Origin: Clavelina lepadiformis
Taxonomy: Eukaryota; Chordata; Ascidiacea; Aplousobranchia; Clavelinidae
Length of the DNA: 64,000 bases
Direction of reading: 5' to 3'
NCBI RefSeq assembly: GCF_947623445.1
Contig: NC_135240.1
Span: forward strand, 4,588,001-4,652,000
Below the pieces are notes generated by a model. It saw nothing but the letters and a program-made list of their open reading frames with translations, searched no databases and was not told where the DNA came from. Of the stretch, positions 1-10,300 are shown piece after piece (the first letter of the stretch is position 1; each line of letters opens with the position of its first letter). Position numbers and translations under genes: made by a program.

Positions 1-1195
1 CCCATAGAATTCATGTTGAACGAGGGCGACACTGAAAGCTATGACGTACTGCGTGACCTTTCACACGGAGAACGTCACAATAAAGCTAACGAAGCTGGGA
101 GGGAGCACACGGAGATTGTGAAGACCGCTTTAAAATGTAAGCTTTCTTACGTCATAATGACTGTTTCATAGAACAATGGGTGTATGATGTGTCAGTAAGT
201 TGCAATAATTTAATCTTTATCCTCGGTCTGAGGAAAGTCTTTGCACCATTTATTTGCGATGATTCCTCGACGTTCGAGCCCCGGGTACCGAGATAGAATT
301 TGCGTATTTCTCAATCAATTATTTATTTTTTCTAATTTTTTCATTATTCGTTAAACTTTTTTTCAAAACTTGAACGATGTGCTCACAATGCCATGTCAAT
401 AATGACGTAACATTGCTGTCTGTAGTCAGCAGCGCACAAGCGGTTGTCTACACGACTCGAAGCATCCACGCCCAGGAGAACGAAAATGTGGTCAACAGCG
501 CCATCAAGTGGCACCGCGACAACGGGCAGGGGAACCACCCGTTCCGGGTGTGCCCCCCAATTCTTCCACTGACCTCCAATGACATCAGAGAAAGCGAGAT
601 GGAGGTCATGTCCATGGGGAGGATGACGTCAAGCAAGTCAAGGGTGAACCCCCTAAAGCATAACTTTCTCCGGATGCGACAGTCGACCGAGATGAACGGA
701 TGCTTCATCGCCGTCATGTCCCGCGAGGTAATTTCATCGTCATCTTGGTAAGAATTCTCTTTTCTGGCGTCTTAATTGCTCTTTATGACGTAACAGTTCG
801 ATCCGAACGACACGTTATCAGCGAAGGACGTTCTACGTCGCGCCGCCCTGCAGGGACTGATCGCCCCAGCTTCCCCCCTCGCCGAGACGAAACCGCTGAG
901 CCCCAGCAAGTGGGTATTCCCCTCATGTGGTTTACTGGAGTTATGTGATATCTATAAACGCGTTTTTCGCAGGGAGGTGACGGAGAGGAAAGAAGAGCAG
1001 GGAGTGGAGAAAACGAAGAGAAGTAAGAGCAAGATTGCGTTTGGGAAGAAGGCAAAGGGGAGCAGCTCCTCCCATCTGCCCAAGCACAGGAAGTCAGCCA
1101 CCAAGAACGTGGATGCGGAAGATGTTGACAGACTGCTGGAGACCTACAACAACACGCACAGGAAGAAGAAAAGTTGTGAGAAAATTTCCGTTTAG
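1..1195 (+). CDS. NSUN7: NSUN7-type RNA cytosine-5 methyltransferase, C-terminal exons (partial)
   Basis: Four exons fit with matching phase: <1-136, 426-727, 797-909 and 973-1195 (TAG), giving 257 residues with the 5' end outside the window. The first exon reads IEFMLNEGDTE and the second SSAQAVVYTTRSIHAQENE, which parallel human NSUN7 segments around its EFILNE and AQAVVYCTCS stretches. Exon 3 (LSAKDVLRRAALQGL) matches the NSUN7-specific segment after the fold, and exon 4 is the Lys/Ser-rich tail. The family is the NOL1/NOP2/Sun SAM-dependent m5C methyltransferases. The T-T-R-S motif here has Arg where active members carry the catalytic Cys (TTCS). Human NSUN7 keeps Cys at this place, so activity of this copy is doubtful. 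The exon 1-2 intron carries a short tRNA-like dispersed repeat at about 224-300. Confidence 0.88.
224..300 (+). repeat. Short tRNA-like dispersed repeat, copy 1
   Basis: CTGAGGAAAGTCTTTGCAC to TTCGAGCCCCGGGTACCGAG, within the first visible NSUN7 intron. The GTTCGAGCCCCGGGT core resembles a tRNA T arm / B box. Related copies lie at 53021-53100 (+), 56990-57070 (-) and 57826-57925 (-). Confidence 0.6.
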
Positions 1196-2146
1196 CGTTG
1201 CTATAGCAACGATGGTTGTCGGCTTGTAGCCCACTATGTTGTCATCGTATTTTTAAAGTAACCTCTCTATTTATTTACTTCATAAACAACTGGCAAAGTT
1301 TTTTCTGTGCTTGACGAAACAAATGCTTAATACAGCTTGCACAATTGTATGTCCACAGCAAGCAAACTAACACTGAACAACGTGGCGCAAAACAATATAA
1401 ACCTCGGATTCTCAGTTGCTGAAACGATTGACTTCTCTGAAAACGTGCTCTCCAGTGTAGGGAAACATGATATTTCACAGCCATCAGATGGCAGCATGCA
1501 GGTAGTATGGGGACATATGTTAAGCGCGTGCCCAGTGACCTGGATTAAGAAAGTAAAAACTTTTCTTTTTAGAATCAAGTCAACACAGACATGGAGAAAA
1601 TGCTAAATAAAATGTCGAGTCGTGACGACACCAGAATGTAAAGTGATTAGTCATCTTTTATCCTCGTTATATTTCACTGTTATTTTCACACAGGTGTTTG
1701 TTCTTAATCTTTTGCTAAAGTGCTTAAAGTGTTTAAATTTTTATCCCTGTATATTCCAATGTACACTTCCTCAAGGTCGGCAGCACAAGTAACTTTGAAG
1801 GAGAATTCAAACTTTACACCTTGATAGTTCCAACATGTTGTGCAGCAGATATGCATTTGAACATTTTGTTTCCATAGCAGTGTATTTATTTGTATCATAC
1901 TGTGCCTGTTTATACGCTACTCTGCAGTTACCTGTTTGCTGCTTGTACAGTCACCATATATCTCATGTTCCGTTCAATAAATACACATTATCATAATCTT
2001 TCCAGTCGGGTTGAAATATGATGAACATATTACCAGTGAGATGAAAAGAAATATGGAATTTTGCAAAACTTTCACCTTCTGGGAAAATTTAATATTACTT
2101 ATTATTATTCATGATTTAAACAAAAACATGTTCGTAGTCGCTTTAG
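1196..2146. other. NSUN7 3' flank / probable 3' UTR
   Basis: No convincing coding exon is seen. AATAAA-type hexamers occur near 1606 and at about 1976 (TTCAATAAATAC), so polyadenylation of the upstream plus-strand gene could fall here. The open frame at 1337-1606 has no ATG start, no neighbours in phase and no recognisable family, and is treated as chance. Confidence 0.4.
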
Positions 2147-3061
2147 TCAATTAATCTTTAGTTTCCCAAAAATTGCTTTCAACGGCCCATCGCCAGGTAA
2201 TCCTGGTGAAAACGTGCACTTATACCATTCGTTGTACGTAGCCATCCAGGATAGTACAGCAGCCACAGTGCCCAAGGCTTTGCTTAAAAAAGTGTGAAAA
2301 TACAAGCAAGTTGAAATCAACATAATAACCCAGATAAAAGATAAAATGCAATTTAAAACAAACAAAATGTCGATGCAGCTATTGGTCGTCCTAAATCTTT
2401 GCTTGAGATTTGAAAGTGTTTTGGAACCGATGGGCACATATAGTGCTGCATCTTTTGATATCTTGCACCAATTTTTATAGATTTGTATTTCAGAGTTGAT
2501 GAATAAAACTGAATAAGTTAAAAGAAAGCAATGTCCCGAGATATCGAAGCCATCCCAATAATGCCCCTGCTTCAACTTGACACAATCACGCTTGTTGTCA
2601 ATATTAAAGTCCGGCATTCCATCTTGACTTAGACAAGTTCCTGTCAAGTTTTCTACAAAATGAAAGACAAAATTTGCCCAAAAATGCCATACCATTGTCC
2701 CGATTGCAATCCTGAAAATTGAAAGTGCCATACTTTTCTTCCAAGCATCACACCCGTACACAAACGAAGAAATCATCATGTACGGGCCTACTATCCCCAC
2801 TGTCCAAGCCCAGGCCCACTTCACAAAAAATTGATTAAAGAAGTTACTTTTTTCAGAAAAATAGCTGTGAGGAATCTCAATGAGGCATTTTATGATCGAT
2901 AAACTCAAAATTCCAAACCAAAGGTAAATAACAAGGAATGAAGGGTGGACGATGCAATATTTCTTCAAGATCTTCAGAACAAATTGTTTCCATCCAACTT
3001 CATTTTTCTCTGCAACGGTTTGACAATTTTCATCCATTGGTGACTTCACTTTGTCAGCCAT
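2147..3061 (-). CDS. FITM2: Fat storage-inducing transmembrane protein (FIT/FITM family)
   Basis: A single-exon 304-residue protein, close to the usual FITM length (about 260-290). It has an acidic/basic N-terminus and about six hydrophobic segments, roughly residues 38-60, 80-103, 112-138, 176-192, 232-254 and 255-275. The signature WDGFDISGHCFLLTY lies at about 169-183. FITM proteins are ER membrane enzymes of the lipid-phosphatase-related fold that partition triacylglycerol into lipid droplets and cleave acyl-CoA (FITM2 acyl-CoA diphosphatase). The two histidines considered catalytic in human FIT2 (His155, His214) correspond to His177 in SGHCF and His256 in LYFHTF, and both are present. 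The ATG at 3061 was chosen because it starts the hydrophilic head and an in-frame stop lies upstream. FITM1 and FITM2 cannot be told apart from this sequence; the FITM2 symbol is the ancestral form. Confidence 0.9.
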   Translation of the reverse strand: MADKVKSPMDENCQTVAEKNEVGWKQFVLKILKKYCIVHPSFLVIYLWFGILSLSIIKCLIEIPHSYFSEKSNFFNQFFVKWAWAWTVGIVGPYMMISSFVYGCDAWKKSMALSIFRIAIGTMVWHFWANFVFHFVENLTGTCLSQDGMPDFNIDNKRDCVKLKQGHYWDGFDISGHCFLLTYSVLFINSEIQIYKNWCKISKDAALYVPIGSKTLSNLKQRFRTTNSCIDILFVLNCILSFIWVIMLISTCLYFHTFLSKALGTVAAVLSWMATYNEWYKCTFSPGLPGDGPLKAIFGKLKIN

Positions 3062-3348
3062 TGCCTATATCCTGTCAAAATAACTAGTAACTTGTAACCT
3101 TTTGTTTGTTAAGGTTGTCATGCCTTCTAACTGTTGCATGAACTTGGAAGCAACTAAAATCGTAATTTAGTCAACGTTCAATCCCCACAAAGAAAAATCA
3201 TCACAACTGTCCAAAGCAAACCAACTAAAACATGAAAGTGACTATTTTGCTAAAAGCAGATCACGCAGCCTGTTGCTAAAGATTGGCGGTTAGGTGAAGA
3301 GAATTGTTAGCCTATGTAAAAACTTGATTTTAATTATTTAGGGTTCAA

Positions 3349-3751
3349 CCCTAGAACTACCGGATCGGTCAATTGACCGGTAGATAAGGATAGATGTGTT
3401 TGCAGGTGTTGCAGGTAAATTAGCTCATTTGTGACTTATAAGCAAGCTAATGTCAGAGATGTGATTAACTCAGTTTGACTATTCGCTACGGTCGCATCAG
3501 AAAAAGTGCAGAATCGGCGTTTTCTCTTCATCTGTTCACCTTGCTGTTTTCATTTTATTGGTCTACGAACGAAACATGTAGCTAAGCCACAATGACTATT
3601 CTTGTTTTATACAATCATCCTTTTTGCCCTCTTTACGTTGACTGAACCTTTTCTGAAAGTTTCTTTCTTCTCAAATTGCTATGTGTAAACATTAAGGTTT
3701 GCAGGAAAATTTCAGCCATTATTTTCATTTACCGGTATGGTAGTTCTAGGG
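3349..3751. mobile_element. piggyBac-type MITE (403 bp)
   Basis: The left end reads CCCTAGAACTACCGG and the right end is its inverse, CCGGTATGGTAGTTCTAGGG with a small insertion. The right flank is TTAA; the left flank is TCAA, which looks like a decayed TTAA. CCCTAGAA termini with TTAA duplications are the hallmark of the piggyBac superfamily. There is no coding capacity, so it is non-autonomous. Confidence 0.7.
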
Positions 3752-4019
3752 TTAATTAGGATTAGATTTAGACTGGATGGTAGTTTTAGGCTGGGTCTAG
3801 GTTACTATGTTTTAACATTAACGTTAGCAGAATAAAAAACTGAAAAACAGAGCATTGAACGCACGATTTTTTCCAATCAAATAGTGGCAACCCAAAAATA
3901 TTCCCTTTGCCCTCTAGTCCCTGCAAGCCTGTGGTGCCATGGTGGAATCCCACAAAACGTTGCACATTATTTGTCACCTGCATAGATATCTTGTATATAA
4001 CACTAGTTGTCTGACTGAA

Positions 4020-4087
4020 CAAAGAGATTTAAACACATGAGTAGAAACTTCTCTTTTGCGCATGACGTCATGTTTGTTTCTTTTATT
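4020..4087. repeat. Left terminal inverted repeat of the P-type element
   Basis: Sixty-eight bases identical in inverse orientation to 7307-7374. The repeat contains the palindrome CATGACGTCATG near its inner half, one of the octamers that are frequent in this window. Confidence 0.95.
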
Positions 4088-4100
4088 GTACTGTTTTCAG

Positions 4101-5531
4101 AAACGTTTACTGCACTGCACCTGGCATTCAAGATAATGTTTTAGAAGAACTGAAATCCAAAAGTCTCAGTCTAGCATCACATGAACGATTTCTCGTTATA
4201 TCAATCGATGAAATGAAAGGTGAAACTTTTCTTGGAATTTTTAACACTATTAATCACACTGTGTAAGATTCTTATTCATGCTTTATGACAAAACAATGAC
4301 ACAAGTTATTAACTGTATATGCACAAGATATAACCTGTTGCTTATTTTGTTTACAGTGAAAGAAAATATTGTGTATAATGCAGCAACAGACCGAATAATA
4401 GGATTTGTTGATCTGGGTGTCGACAGACAATACAATAATGAAGCTCCTGCCACACATGCCCTACAATTTTATGGTAGGAGTATCCTCAGCAATTTTTCCC
4501 GGCCTATTGTTTTTTATGCCACCAAGAATACAAAGGCATTTCACTTGGTTAGCATGTTCTGGGAAGTGGTTGAATCCTTGGCCGGATGTGGTTTTACAGT
4601 CTTAGCACTTGTTGCTGATGGTGCATCCTGCAATCGAAAATTGTTCCAATTGCTCAATAATTCCAATTTGACCGTCCCCTACAAGTGCATTAATATTTAT
4701 CAGCCAGAAATGCCTATTTATTTGATTAGTGACCCTCCACACTTGCTGAAGACAGCCTGTAACTGTGTGAGATCCAGCCGTCCAGGTGGAGCTAGAATGA
4801 TGAAGTACAATCAACATTTCATTTTGTGGAAGCATTTTTGCCATGTTCCCTACCTATTTGAAAGTTCAGAGTTGAGAAGTTGCAAGTTGACTGATGGCCA
4901 TTTTTCCCATAAGAGTTACGCAAAAATGCGGGTTTGCTATGCCGCACAATTGCTCTCTGGAACTGTCTCCAGTTTAATGAAGAGTCGTGGTGGAGAAGAA
5001 ATGAAGATGAGTGCGTGGTTTGCTGGTTTGATGAATAAGTGGTTTGACCTCATGAACACCAGATTAAATTATTCATACAACCCAGACTTGAAACCATATA
5101 CAACGATTGATGATCCTCGTCTGAAATGGCTTAATACATTCCTTTCAGAGTTAAAACAATGGAAAAGCAGTTTAACTGGGTCCGTTTCCGAACAGTCAAA
5201 GCAGTTTCTGAGCCATCAAACCTACGACGGTTTAGTTTCCACATCCATGGCCATTGCTGAATTGGTGAAATTCTTGTTGGAGAACAGCCCAGAGGGTTCA
5301 TACGTCTTAACTAAGCGCTTAAACCAAGACCCATTGGAGGCCTATTTCGGTCATATGAGACAAACTGGCCGTCGAAATGAAGTGCCTGATATTCACCAAT
5401 ATGCACAATTTGAAAATGTGATAATGTGCAAAAAGAATATCAAGTCACTTAAGGGGTCAAATGTAAATCACGTTATTGACTGGAAACATGGTGATGTTTG
5501 CGATGATCCAATGCCGAAGCGAAAAAAATAA
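4101..5531 (+). CDS. P-element/THAP9-like transposase, catalytic region
   Basis: Two exons fit: 4101-4219, preceded by a good acceptor (ctgttttcag), and 4357-5531 ending TAA, joined in phase at SIDEMK|VKENI. The chain has the RNase-H-like order of P transposases: first Asp in ISIDEMK, second Asp in LVADGASCNRKLF, a DPPHLLK block, and the late acidic motif LNQDPLEAYFGHMRQTGRR with its Glu. Drosophila P transposase and human THAP9 share this layout. The N-terminal THAP zinc finger and leucine zipper are absent from this reading, and the usual P C-terminal domain is also missing after PMPKRKK; a similar tail appears instead on the opposite strand. A start codon for a stand-alone protein was not found in the first exon; internal ATGs exist. 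Confidence 0.85.
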
Positions 5532-5638
5532 CTTGATTTCGAGTGTTTTGACAGTCTGCTTACAATACAGTAACACTTAATCCTTTTTGAGCTAAAACTG
5601 ACGAAGTACATGTAAGAAGACAACTATGTAATGTACAT

Positions 5639-6862
5639 TCATTTTAATGATTTTCTCAGACTTACATTTTGATCAGAGGTTACATGCAGTACTGAATTTA
5701 AATGATTGGCTTTTTGATAGCATCTAATCTTCACGTAAAATTTACATATTTTCATGCACAATTTTTGCAAACATTCATCAAAAACAAGATTTTCAAATAT
5801 ATCTTTTATGTTACAAACACTCAAAGAAGACATGCAACTTTCCATGATGTGCTCCTTTATGTCTTGTTTCCTAAAGACACTTTCTACATACATCAACAAT
5901 TTCACTAGTGATTTCGCTGGAACTGTAAGATGTCCATAATTGTAATTATTTAAAGCGGAAATCAAGGAACTATTAGTGGTTTCATTACTATAATCAGTTA
6001 AACAAGACAATAGATCTATTTCTCTCGGATTTATACAGCGCTTAGTGAGTTTCTGCAAAATATAACCAAAATATAACCAAATACTGAATTATGAATTCTT
6101 CGTCTCGGGTTAACTTGTGTAATGTCAAGTGTTTCCCCTTTTTGTTGTGTGCAACAGTGGTAACGTGTGATAAAAATACATCAAACAATTTTCGTGTTAA
6201 ACATAGTGACAATTTTCTTGGCAAGAAAAATAGTGATGGGATGCACGTAATTCCATCACAGGAGAATTTATGAAACAGTTCATCCGGTGAACTGTACGAA
6301 GAAAATAGCTTCATAAAATAGTTAACCGCATCTGCAGTTAGATCTGTTTTAACGCCACCCACTGTTTCCCACCATTCCATCAGCTTTTCTCTTGTAACAT
6401 TATTGCAAGAAGATTCTGCAAGACAAGTGTAAAATTAAGTTTGTTTGATTTTTTTAATCGGAATCTGCCAATGATAGAGCTCAAAATGAAATAAGTTTCA
6501 AACAAAAAACAAATATACCGTGAGCAGTTTTTTGATGAGCCAGCAAAGTTTCATTACTTGTGCAGTTATGCAAACATTGTCCACATCTGCAAATAAATAT
6601 TTTCATTATCAGATTAAATGACATCAATATATCAGTACAGTATTACTTCAAATACTCGTTACGACTTACATTAATTTGTTGTTTTGCTTGGCTGTTTATT
6701 ATAAATTGGCGAGAACGTACACTCTGGGTGACCGCCATACAGGACAAGCTCAACAGCAGTTGGCTAATTGATTAATAGGCATATCGTATCTTACATGAAG
6801 TTTGCTGCATCGTCTTCTGGGTCACAATCTATTTCAATAATTAACTTCAAGTTGACATCCAT
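5639..6862 (-). CDS. Transposon-borne C2H2-finger protein with P-transposase-like C-terminal tail
   Basis: Three exons join in phase: 6862-6795 (MDVNLKLIIEIDCDPEDD), 6586-6519 (one C2H2 finger: Cys-x2-Cys-x12-His-x4-His at about residues 24-45) and 6415 to about 6070 (ESSCNNVTREKLMEWWETVGG). A last exon from 6052 (acceptor ttttgcag) runs to 5639 and carries a block, NNYNYGHLTVPAKSLVKL, of the kind seen near the C-terminus of P-type transposases. The join between the last two parts is unclear: an 11-bp tandem duplication sits at about 6060-6085, so there is either a 25-nt intron, too short for normal splicing, or a frame break. The gene points at the transposase gene and lies wholly inside the inverted repeats. 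Function is unknown; it could be an accessory DNA-binding subunit or the displaced C-terminal half of the enzyme. Confidence 0.7.
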
Positions 6863-7306
6863 TAGATCCCAACAACTGCACCACAATAACAAGATCTGAA
6901 ATCAGACTTTCAGTAGCCTATTTTAATGACACAACACCTGCAACATAAGGCCTATGCTAATGAGTAATGAGTTTAGTTGCTAATTGCCTGGTCGAAGATA
7001 AATGTGGTGAACGAAAAAATCTTCCCGCGCAACTCAAGTAGGCTAAGCCATGCCTTGATACAAAACAGCAGCATTATCAGTTCAAGGAACTGAAACTAAG
7101 TTAATTGCTGAACCTAAAACTCTCACCTGATTTCAATAATTAATTTCAATTAAAATTAACACCCAATGGATCCCAATAACTGCACCGTAATAATAAGACT
7201 AATCTCTTCCAGCAGCAAACAGATCTGAAAATCATTGTCGTCGTCTGCATGTTTATTGTTATGTAGTGAACCGTGACCGTGGAGAAAGTAGAATATGCTC
7301 CAAGAG

Positions 7307-7374
7307 AATAAAAGAAACAAACATGACGTCATGCGCAAAAGAGAAGTTTCTACTCATGTGTTTAAATCTCTTTG
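7307..7374. repeat. Right terminal inverted repeat of the P-type element
   Basis: Exact inverse copy of 4020-4087, followed at once by the GACTGAA target-site duplicate at 7375-7381. Confidence 0.95.
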
Positions 7375-10300
7375 GACTGAATGAGTATCCCACTATTAAA
7401 GGATTATTAGCTATTCAATTTTAACAGACAGTGTAGGAAGCGTAGTTGTAACTACAATGTGTCAGGTTTAATGCTACAACGTGATACGAGGAGCATCTTG
7501 AAATGCTAAGAATTGCACCTGTACGCACAAAGTGTATCGGCAGTACATGCTACGGACGTTTAGGTGTTATTTTTCAGGTCTTCTGTAATAATAATAGACC
7601 AGAGGTAAATAAACTACGACACGCATCACTGTGCGACAAATAAGCATATTGCATTGTAGTCTATTGAGCAAAGGGGTATCCAGCCCGTGATCGTCGGCTC
7701 TCATGCTTATCTGGCCCATTGTGAAAACGCCTGCTGCACTCACCAGTAATCTCAACCTACATTGATTTACACCACAATAAAAAAAAAAATATTACAACGT
7801 AACAATTTTCCTTCATATGGCCTATCTCAAGCAATGCAAGCTTCCTGCATTTCTTAGCACATTAGAGTTAAACTGCTATTAACCTGTGATAATAAGGGGA
7901 TATTATAGCATACAGATCGAATGCAGCATAAAATTCTTGTTTACGGAAATCTGCTTTACGAAACGTGACGTTTATGACAGATAATATTGCATACCGATGA
8001 CTTTCTGTACTCGCCTGTACTTATCAATGGAAATTGTCGATCCACTTTGATTTTTTTTTAATTGCAAGCGTTTTGCGTTACATATAAATTCCTTTACATG
8101 ATAAAATAAAAAGTTGAAAATACGTTGCTTAGCTCTTATTTACAGCGGTTGAATCCTACGCACTTGACTTGTTCGGTATGACGTCTAGATACGTGGCCAG
8201 CGAAGCATGCGACGTAAAATGCGTAGTATCTGTAGCCTGGTATCTGTAACGCGTGTGAATACAGTAATTCGGTTCGCATTTACTTGTAGTTTATCATTTT
8301 ACACTTTACTGGAAATGTGAAACATAATTTTTTTATGTAACCCGCCACAGATACCACGCAATCGTATTCATACTTTGCACGATCTAAACAAATTTCGATC
8401 AGAGCTGCCATTGCCTGCCTTCGACTTATCTTGAAGCACCAGGTGGCTTCGTTAATTTGTGTTCTCGTTGTGTGTTACGTCATCTATGTTCACACATTTT
8501 TTGTTTGATCAGCGTGTGTCCATATTACTGAAAGAGATACTTTACTAGCTTTCTAGTACTCAGCCTCGGCCAGTGTAACTTGAACAATCTAAATCTAAAG
8601 ATCTTTTTTGAACGACACGAAATGTTGCCATGGAAACTTTAAAAGTCATCACTGTAGGGCAAGTTTTTTTTACAGCTTCCGGCAGCTTCCTAAATACTCA
8701 GAATTTATGTAGTATCATGTTTTAAGCTGTTTGTAGGAATTTTATATTGCAACTTTTTTCTATTTTTCATGCAACTTTTATCAGGTATTGCGCAAATGTA
8801 AACATGCTATAAAACTATTTCTAGTATGGTTCTATTCTCTTTGATTTGCATAGCAAAGAGCTATGTGATGGATTAGCTGCATCTCAATGTTATCTATGAC
8901 GCAACGCTTGGCTTGCAAGCTAGAAGTTCAACAACCCCAGCCAAGCACGCCCGAACTAAATTAGAAGTGGAAGTCATTTTCGCTCCAAAGCTAGTATTTT
9001 GAACTTTGAATCTTAGCCTAATTAAAATGTACCAGTCAGCTTTTAGGGGCGCAGTAATAGTATAGTATGGGAGCTGTTACTCTCTCCATTCGCCTTTTTA
9101 TTTCTCGTGCGTGACTGAAGAGTGAAGACTGAAGAGAGATTGTTGCGCAATAATGCTTCCGAGACTGATTGAATGAGGCTAGAGTGCTAGTTGTCGGTTA
9201 GGATACTTGTTTTTATAGTGCAGTGTTGATTGACTGTTGGTATTTTTTAAATTATGCGTTTGCCAGGACAGTGAAAGCATTTAGCCTGTCTAACAATTGT
9301 CTAGATTTTAAACCTAAAAAACATAAAAATGTATGCATGATCGATTGAATAGCGAAGAAAGAAACGGAACAAGCAGACACCCTGCAAATCTTAAACTGTT
9401 GGGTTATACAACGGAACCTTTCGAGTATCTCATACCTTAACACTTTCAAAAAACTTGTGCATAAATGCAACTTTTGTTAAAATTAGGTGCAACTTTCTCA
9501 CAATTGTAGTGCAACAAAAACTTGCCCTAGTCATCAGATCCGAGGCATCTACGTCACAGCGAAGGATTGACAACAACAAAGTCAGTGGAACCACCAGCGC
9601 CTTAACCTCATGGGCAGGCGCAAGCGACGCCATAACATAAAAAAAAACATTGAATCAAACTCTGTGTTGCCAACTTATAATTTAAGAAAACTTCTACTTT
9701 CTCGAAATGTTTATTTTTTGCATCTATTACAACCTTTATCGCAACCTTTTTAACATAGTATAACATTAACAATAACTAATAAGATCACATTGTTGTTATA
9801 GCCTAGTATACTTGTCATTATTAGGGCGGAACGGAAAATACGATGCCAAGTCCTTAAATACAACTTAAACTAAAATTTTTACATAGAAATCTTATACTCG
9901 AAGGTCCGTTGGATGAAGTTATAACGAATTGTTGATGTAATCTTTGACATATGGTGTCAAAATAATAAGAAAGTTTTACGAAATAAAATTAAACTTGAAT
10001 AGACTGTGTTACATTAACGATTAGTCGTATGTGTAATGGTGATACTAAGTTAGTGAGTGAAAACGGAATTGTTAAAAATCGGAATTTAAAAAGTGGTAGT
10101 CGGTATGAGGCTACGAAAATTATTATTACAATTTCAGAATAGGGTAAAATTTTCAAAATATTTTAAGTAGGTCGCCCATTTTGCTGCGAAGTTTGTAAAT
10201 AATACAAATTTGTCATATGTCGTTCATATTTCGTTAACATGCTGTAAAGACTAAATATCCAGTTAAAGAAACCTGCCGCAAAATGTCTTCAATGTAAACA

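Follow-up and report, generated by a model that had tools for sequence, protein, structure and literature searches.

The locus examined here raises the question of why a P-type transposon should carry two genes that converge on each other, one encoding the catalytic part of a transposase and the other a protein with a C2H2 finger. A first-pass annotation of the window, the 64,000-nucleotide stretch of Clavelina lepadiformis DNA that we analysed (C1:4,588,001-4,652,000), had described such a P/THAP9-type element at positions 4020-7374. The assignment to this type held up, both through the P-type domains recognized by Pfam and through the THAP domain of complete copies elsewhere in the one genome that was searched (209 Mb).

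The window copy and its complete relatives

The unit at 4020-7374 begins and ends with 68-bp inverted repeats (4020-4087 and 7307-7374) that proved 100% complementary when the window sequences were compared, and it is flanked on the left (4013-4019) and on the right (7375-7381) by the 7-bp target-site duplication GACTGAA. The two convergent genes within one unit were confirmed as initially described, with the refinement that these 68 bp correspond to the outer segment of a repeat that measures about 376 bp in complete copies. The left repeat of the window copy is a plus-strand remnant of this length (4020-4087), as against approximately 376 bp in complete copies. The right repeat, on the minus strand, extends over approximately 376 bp (6999-7374, its inner border inferred from complete copies), and its outer 68 bp match the left end of the copy exactly. 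At 4087/4088 the junction sequences reveal a deletion in which position 68 of the left repeat is fused to position 2964 of the complete element; element positions 69-2963, which hold the THAP exon and exons 2-6 of the plus gene, are gone.

Numbered as in the complete model, the plus-gene exons that remain are exon 7 (4101-4219), with the first catalytic Asp and the motif SIDEM, and exon 8 (4357-5531), which encodes the remainder of the RNase H domain (second Asp and Glu) and the GTP-binding domain and runs to a stop codon with no C-terminal domain (CTD). Pfam assigned the plus-strand open reading frame at 4278-5531 to its families for the P-type RNase H N domain (E 1.4e-18) and the GTP-binding domain (E 3.3e-8). 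On the minus strand, the exon model placed in the window has a first exon at 6795-6862 (start codon, 22 residues), a second at 6519-6586 (C2H2 finger) and a third at 5639-6415 (linker and CTD-like tail). Over the part that it shares with the complete copy L009, the window copy differs by 12 substitutions; in addition, 7 nt are inserted at 6068, which breaks the frame of minus exon 3. Because of the deletion of positions 69-2963 and this insertion, both genes of the window copy are broken, and because the deletion removed plus exons 1-6, including the THAP exon, the copy has no THAP domain. The window copy is an internally deleted derivative of a two-gene P-superfamily cut-and-paste transposon.

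Searching the genome with the window unit returned 111 matches, 15 of which, besides the window copy, span query positions 67-3355 unbroken at 97-99% identity. Twenty loci were fetched together with upstream DNA, and the left end was located in 19; L028, where it was not found, was excluded from the end and frame counts. Five copies of this family, family A, are complete (L009, L014, L015, L018 and L020; 6,236-6,268 bp), with terminal inverted repeats of about 376 bp that are about 98% alike. Target duplications measure 7 bp in 19 of 20 copies, the window copy included, with an 8-bp match in L025, and their sequences vary. Kolobok transposons duplicate TTAA, and membership among them was excluded by these 7-bp duplications of varied sequence. 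Four copies (L010, L011, L012 and L019) share one internal deletion with the same borders and yet lie within four different duplications; therefore, a deleted, non-autonomous form has been mobilized.

Among the 19 family A copies, 14 have a minus frame and 4 a plus gene uninterrupted by stops or frameshifts; exon 5 is shortened in two of the latter four (L013 and L016). These fractions are not comparable as a sign of selection because the search query held the minus gene and not plus exons 1-6. Values of dN/dS for the minus gene among family A copies were scattered from 0.27 to above 1, there being too few changes. The first-pass annotation had proposed a search of the same genome for two-gene copies with intact frames. 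The convergent order was indeed found in many copies; as for the frames, L020 alone among the 19 family A copies has all exons of both genes open and at reference length.

Predicted proteins of the two genes

Our gene models were derived from reading frames, splice signals and conservation, and the proteins described here are predicted from these and not from transcripts. In the complete copy L014, the plus gene has eight exons with GT/AG borders and encodes 840 residues. Pfam recognized in this protein a THAP domain (33.1 bits, cut-off 23.9) in which the C2CH spacing is present, a helix-turn-helix domain (HTH, PF12017; 23.3 bits, cut-off 23), RNase H N (PF21787; 96.1 bits, cut-off 24.6) and the GTP-binding domain (PF21788; 32.7 bits, cut-off 24.8), while RNase H C scored 15.2 bits, under its cut-off of 24. 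The catalytic residues D446, D537 and E777 are all contained in the 840-residue protein, and the second Asp and the Glu align with the fly P transposase. No CTD was matched by Pfam in the plus protein, and 63 residues follow its catalytic Glu, compared with 265, 204 and 138 (the last counted to a frame break) in the fused transposases L036, L037 and L038. The first-pass annotation had stated that the plus gene lacks both THAP and the usual C-terminal part; the second absence stands, but the first is peculiar to the window deletion.

The complete element thus has the THAP, HTH, RNase H N and GTP-binding domains, the DDE residues and the target duplication of the P superfamily. What it lacks is a CTD in the same polypeptide, a CTD-like tail being located instead in the convergent minus gene. 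By its domains, ends and duplications, the predicted catalytic gene belongs to the P superfamily, although not in the canonical form of a single protein with a fused CTD.

The family A minus gene consists of three exons, predicted to encode 22 residues beginning with the start codon, one C2H2 finger, and a linker followed by a tail that ends in LRKSLK. The finger has the pattern C-x2-C-x12-H-x4-H, and its Pfam zinc-finger scores fall under the curated cut-offs. No CTD family was matched in Pfam by the minus protein of family A or by that of a second family, family B (described below), both giving weak zinc-finger matches only. A search of IMG/VR with the minus protein gave no relative, and one 400-base piece of L009 gave no match in phage records. 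AlphaFold modeling of the 139-residue tail fragment of the window, run without an alignment, yielded a mean pLDDT of 40.3, too low to be of use.

Family B, convergent pairing and the minus-gene tail

A genome search with the minus tail found relatives at 34-41% identity. The best copy of family B, L029, is 5,065 bp long. Its ends are short, about 29 bp, and its flanks show a 7-bp duplication, GTCACAC. On the plus strand it is identical to family A at 47% of residues in the THAP domain, 33% in the middle and 60% in the catalytic part, and its tail is convergent on the minus strand. The minus proteins of the two families are about 35% identical. That of L029 is predicted to have 318 residues encoded by four exons and has its own ATG; its zf-C2H2 match (22.7 bits, E 1.2e-4) falls under the cut-off of 25.2, and the intron before the finger has the same phase in both families. 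The plus gene of L029 is damaged, the catalytic match starting at query-exon residue 47 beside an inverted repeat; L039, another family B copy, keeps the catalytic part that L029 has lost. Only family A yielded a copy with both genes intact (L020). The idea that promoters shared within the long repeats are a conserved design was rejected, since repeats of about 376 bp in family A and about 29 bp in family B are not a common feature; in family A, the repeat could hold a leader exon. At C8:17.838-17.853 Mb, a family A and a family B copy (L023 and L031) lie end to end with the common flank GTCTGAC, which suggests that they may have inserted into or beside one another.

When whole elements of the two families were compared as DNA at E 1e-3, similarity was confined to the catalytic exon. 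In the tail region, the minus frame alone matched (E 1.4e-30) and no DNA similarity was detectable. Identity by codon position in the minus gene is 47, 62 and 35%, and 59 of the 99 codons for the same residue differ. This codon-position pattern and the synonymous differences indicate that the minus protein has been kept by selection since families A and B diverged.

For a count of pairing, catalytic matches were merged into 51 loci and the tail matches used into 77, with a distance limit of 2.5 kb. Catalytic matches below 48% identity (single-gene families and weak fragments) were left out, as was part of the tail matches (for the most part pieces of exons from loci already listed, besides weak ones). 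A minus-gene tail lies within 2.5 kb of 46 of the 51 catalytic loci of the clade (39 of 40 A-type and 7 of 11 B-type), and it is downstream on the opposite strand, that is, convergent, in 46 of 46. Since most of these loci are copies of two families, the 46 pairs cannot be counted as independent of one another; it is the two families that provide independent evidence. No tail was found within 2.5 kb at the other five loci, one A-type and four B-type. These four family B catalytic fragments form one cluster at C3:23.65-23.75 Mb, which may reflect local duplication or be what is left of a former host gene. The stable two-gene form that the first-pass annotation had envisaged is borne out by this pairing in two diverged families.

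In single-gene P families from this genome (L036, L037, L038 and L040), the C-terminal part follows the catalytic part within one gene, with a frame break there in the L038 copy and a probable intron in L036. The Pfam family Tnp_P_element_C matched L036 (E 0.0083) and L038 (E 0.093) below its cut-off, covering the YIAGY/YISGY region. A profile of the family A and B tails matched the L036 CTD, second exon included, over 126 columns with E 1.2e-5; the score of 40.7 exceeded the shuffle maximum of 22.5 and was reached by none of 100 column shuffles. The fused relatives L036 and L038 gave E 1.3e-5 in the same type of comparison. We joined the second L036 exon manually and with knowledge of the tail; when this exon is omitted, the L036 match has E 0.0068 and is still C-terminal. 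Against whole fused proteins, the profile matched best at the C-terminus of both L036 (820 residues; match at 652-799, E 7.6e-5) and L038 (776 residues; match at 725-752, E 2.3e-4). For L037, its best match was not C-terminal (392-440, E 0.084), while the family A tail alone ranked 704-732 first (E 0.054). The profile was not significantly similar to L037 or to the second L038 piece alone (10 and 13 of 100 shuffles reached the score), and the family B tail alone matched L036 weakly (E 0.076 against the CTD, 0.21 in the whole-protein comparison).

On these comparisons the minus tail is likely, though not proven, to be homologous to the fused CTD of P transposases, in keeping with the resemblance to P-type tails that the first-pass annotation had seen in the minus C-terminal block. 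A CTD that is fused in other P families of this genome is, in the two-gene clade, found in the minus gene only, behind the C2H2 finger. The only P transposase sequence among solved structures was 6p5a (569 residues), which L036 matches up to chain position 560 with none of the match beyond. L036, L037, L038 and other single-gene P families have long open frames (up to 739-860 residues) and repeated identical scores, and to judge from these they look recent.

Competing explanations and known two-gene transposons

It seems probable to us that this is a two-gene P-superfamily element, in which a THAP/HTH/RNase H/GTP-binding plus protein is complemented by a convergent C2H2-tail protein supplying the CTD in trans. 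The sequences themselves show the layout and its conservation in family B, the THAP domain and DDE residues of the plus gene, and the similarity between tail and CTD. The plus-strand transposase of a complete element would end near the RNase H border, and the opposite-strand protein would have a short N-terminus followed by a single C2H2 finger, then a linker and the CTD-homologous tail. The two proteins may associate, so that the CTD is furnished in trans and the transpososome completed, and the finger may add a DNA or protein contact. A CTD acting in trans is plausible because, in the fly P enzyme, both the GTP-binding domain and the CTD line the path of the looped-out transferred strand (PMC7776569, in part). 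The split would predate the divergence of families A and B, and most simply it would have arisen when a single-gene P element had its 3' part inverted. For the stronger claim, that a P-superfamily DDE transposase has in nature been divided between two convergent genes, each specifying an obligate subunit, with a C2H2-CTD partner completing the transpososome of the THAP/RNase H/GTP-binding catalytic subunit in trans, we put the chances at barely better than even.

If this is true, a second transposition protein can arise through splitting of the enzyme, and the element would be an independent parallel to RAG1/RAG2 with a partner derived from the enzyme's own tail. It would also serve as a comparison case for RAG1/RAG2, whose convergent arrangement is similar, and a CTD maintained in a separate gene would be a natural experiment on the role of this domain. 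In the open-access literature on P/THAP, split or two-gene transposons, we found no two-gene P element.

The minus protein might instead be a regulator, a C2H2-CTD repressor or tuner, with a plus protein that works without a CTD. A truncated repressor of 66 kDa is produced by the P element of the fly (PMC7776569, in part), and deleted copies here often have an open minus frame (L010-L012, L019, L022, L024, L025 and L027), a set biased by a query that contained the minus gene. However, the plus protein is without a CTD that is present in its fused relatives, a loss for which a mere regulator would not account, and the minus gene stays with the catalytic gene in both families; we regard this explanation as unlikely. 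More doubtful still is a capture origin, in which the element took up an independent gene, transposase-related or from the host, whose product ends in a CTD-like tail and assists in, for example, end binding or nuclear import. No counterpart of the N-terminal exon, C2H2 finger and linker was identified in the fused families, Pfam gave no more than weak zinc-finger matches, and two-gene elements such as RAGL and MuDR do exist, but the part absent from the plus gene is exactly the part present in the minus gene.

The first-pass suggestion that a C2H2 finger had replaced THAP, which the window copy taken alone invites with its missing THAP domain and a C2H2 finger on the other strand, has almost nothing left in its favor: the plus gene of complete copies has a THAP exon with the C2CH residues, which family B matches as well (47% identity), and the replacement is ruled out. 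The related idea that DNA binding was split from catalysis is not simply so, the separated part being the CTD. A one-off composite or rearranged copy of no wider meaning, for which the deletion and frameshift of the window copy might speak, is hardly credible either; the recurrence of the convergent arrangement at 46 of 51 loci argues against it and the diverged family B rules it out. The annotation had also considered that other copies might have a THAP-containing plus gene and that the minus part might be confined to the window copy; the former is the case, the latter is not.

The preferred reading, with the CTD supplied by a second protein, departs from the known P-type systems chiefly in gene arrangement. 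Like the Drosophila P element and vertebrate THAP9, the element has THAP, HTH, RNase H with DDE and a GTP-binding insertion (PMC7776569, in part), together with inverted repeats, target duplications and many internally deleted copies. In the known proteins the CTD is fused (PMC7776569 and PMC10983969, each in part), whereas in this element a convergent C2H2 gene carries the CTD-like tail. P and Pdre2 have 8-bp duplications, as opposed to 7 bp here. Galileo, a P-superfamily element of Drosophila, is similar in its long inverted repeats and mostly 7-bp duplications (PMC4168063, in part); in that part of the source no second gene is mentioned, and the ends of family B, unlike those of Galileo, are short (about 29 bp).

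MuDR of maize also has two genes transcribed convergently, but it belongs to another superfamily, the mudrB product is of unknown function, and promoters have been shown in its repeats (PMC3440606, in part). RAGL/ProtoRAG elements likewise carry two convergent genes between inverted repeats, for a DDE enzyme and a partner; they differ in superfamily, in their 5-bp duplications and in a partner that is a kelch-type RAG2L and not the enzyme's own tail (PMC7204232, in part). Neither a RAG1L core, a kelch RAG2L nor 5-bp duplications were found here: Pfam searches with both proteins returned P-type and zinc-finger families only, and the duplications are 7 bp. The second protein of PIF/Harbinger elements is a separate protein of DNA-binding type and not a transposase tail. 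Two element-encoded proteins are required in that system (PMC2836001, in part).

Finally, a 54-nt part of the right terminal repeat of the window copy (7145-7198) is 78% identical to 6841-6894, in the region of minus exon 1. A second direct repeat (6831-6850 and 7130-7149; 20 nt, 95%) adjoins the first and extends the same similarity. From these alignments, part of the right repeat and the start of the minus gene appear as if derived from one duplication.
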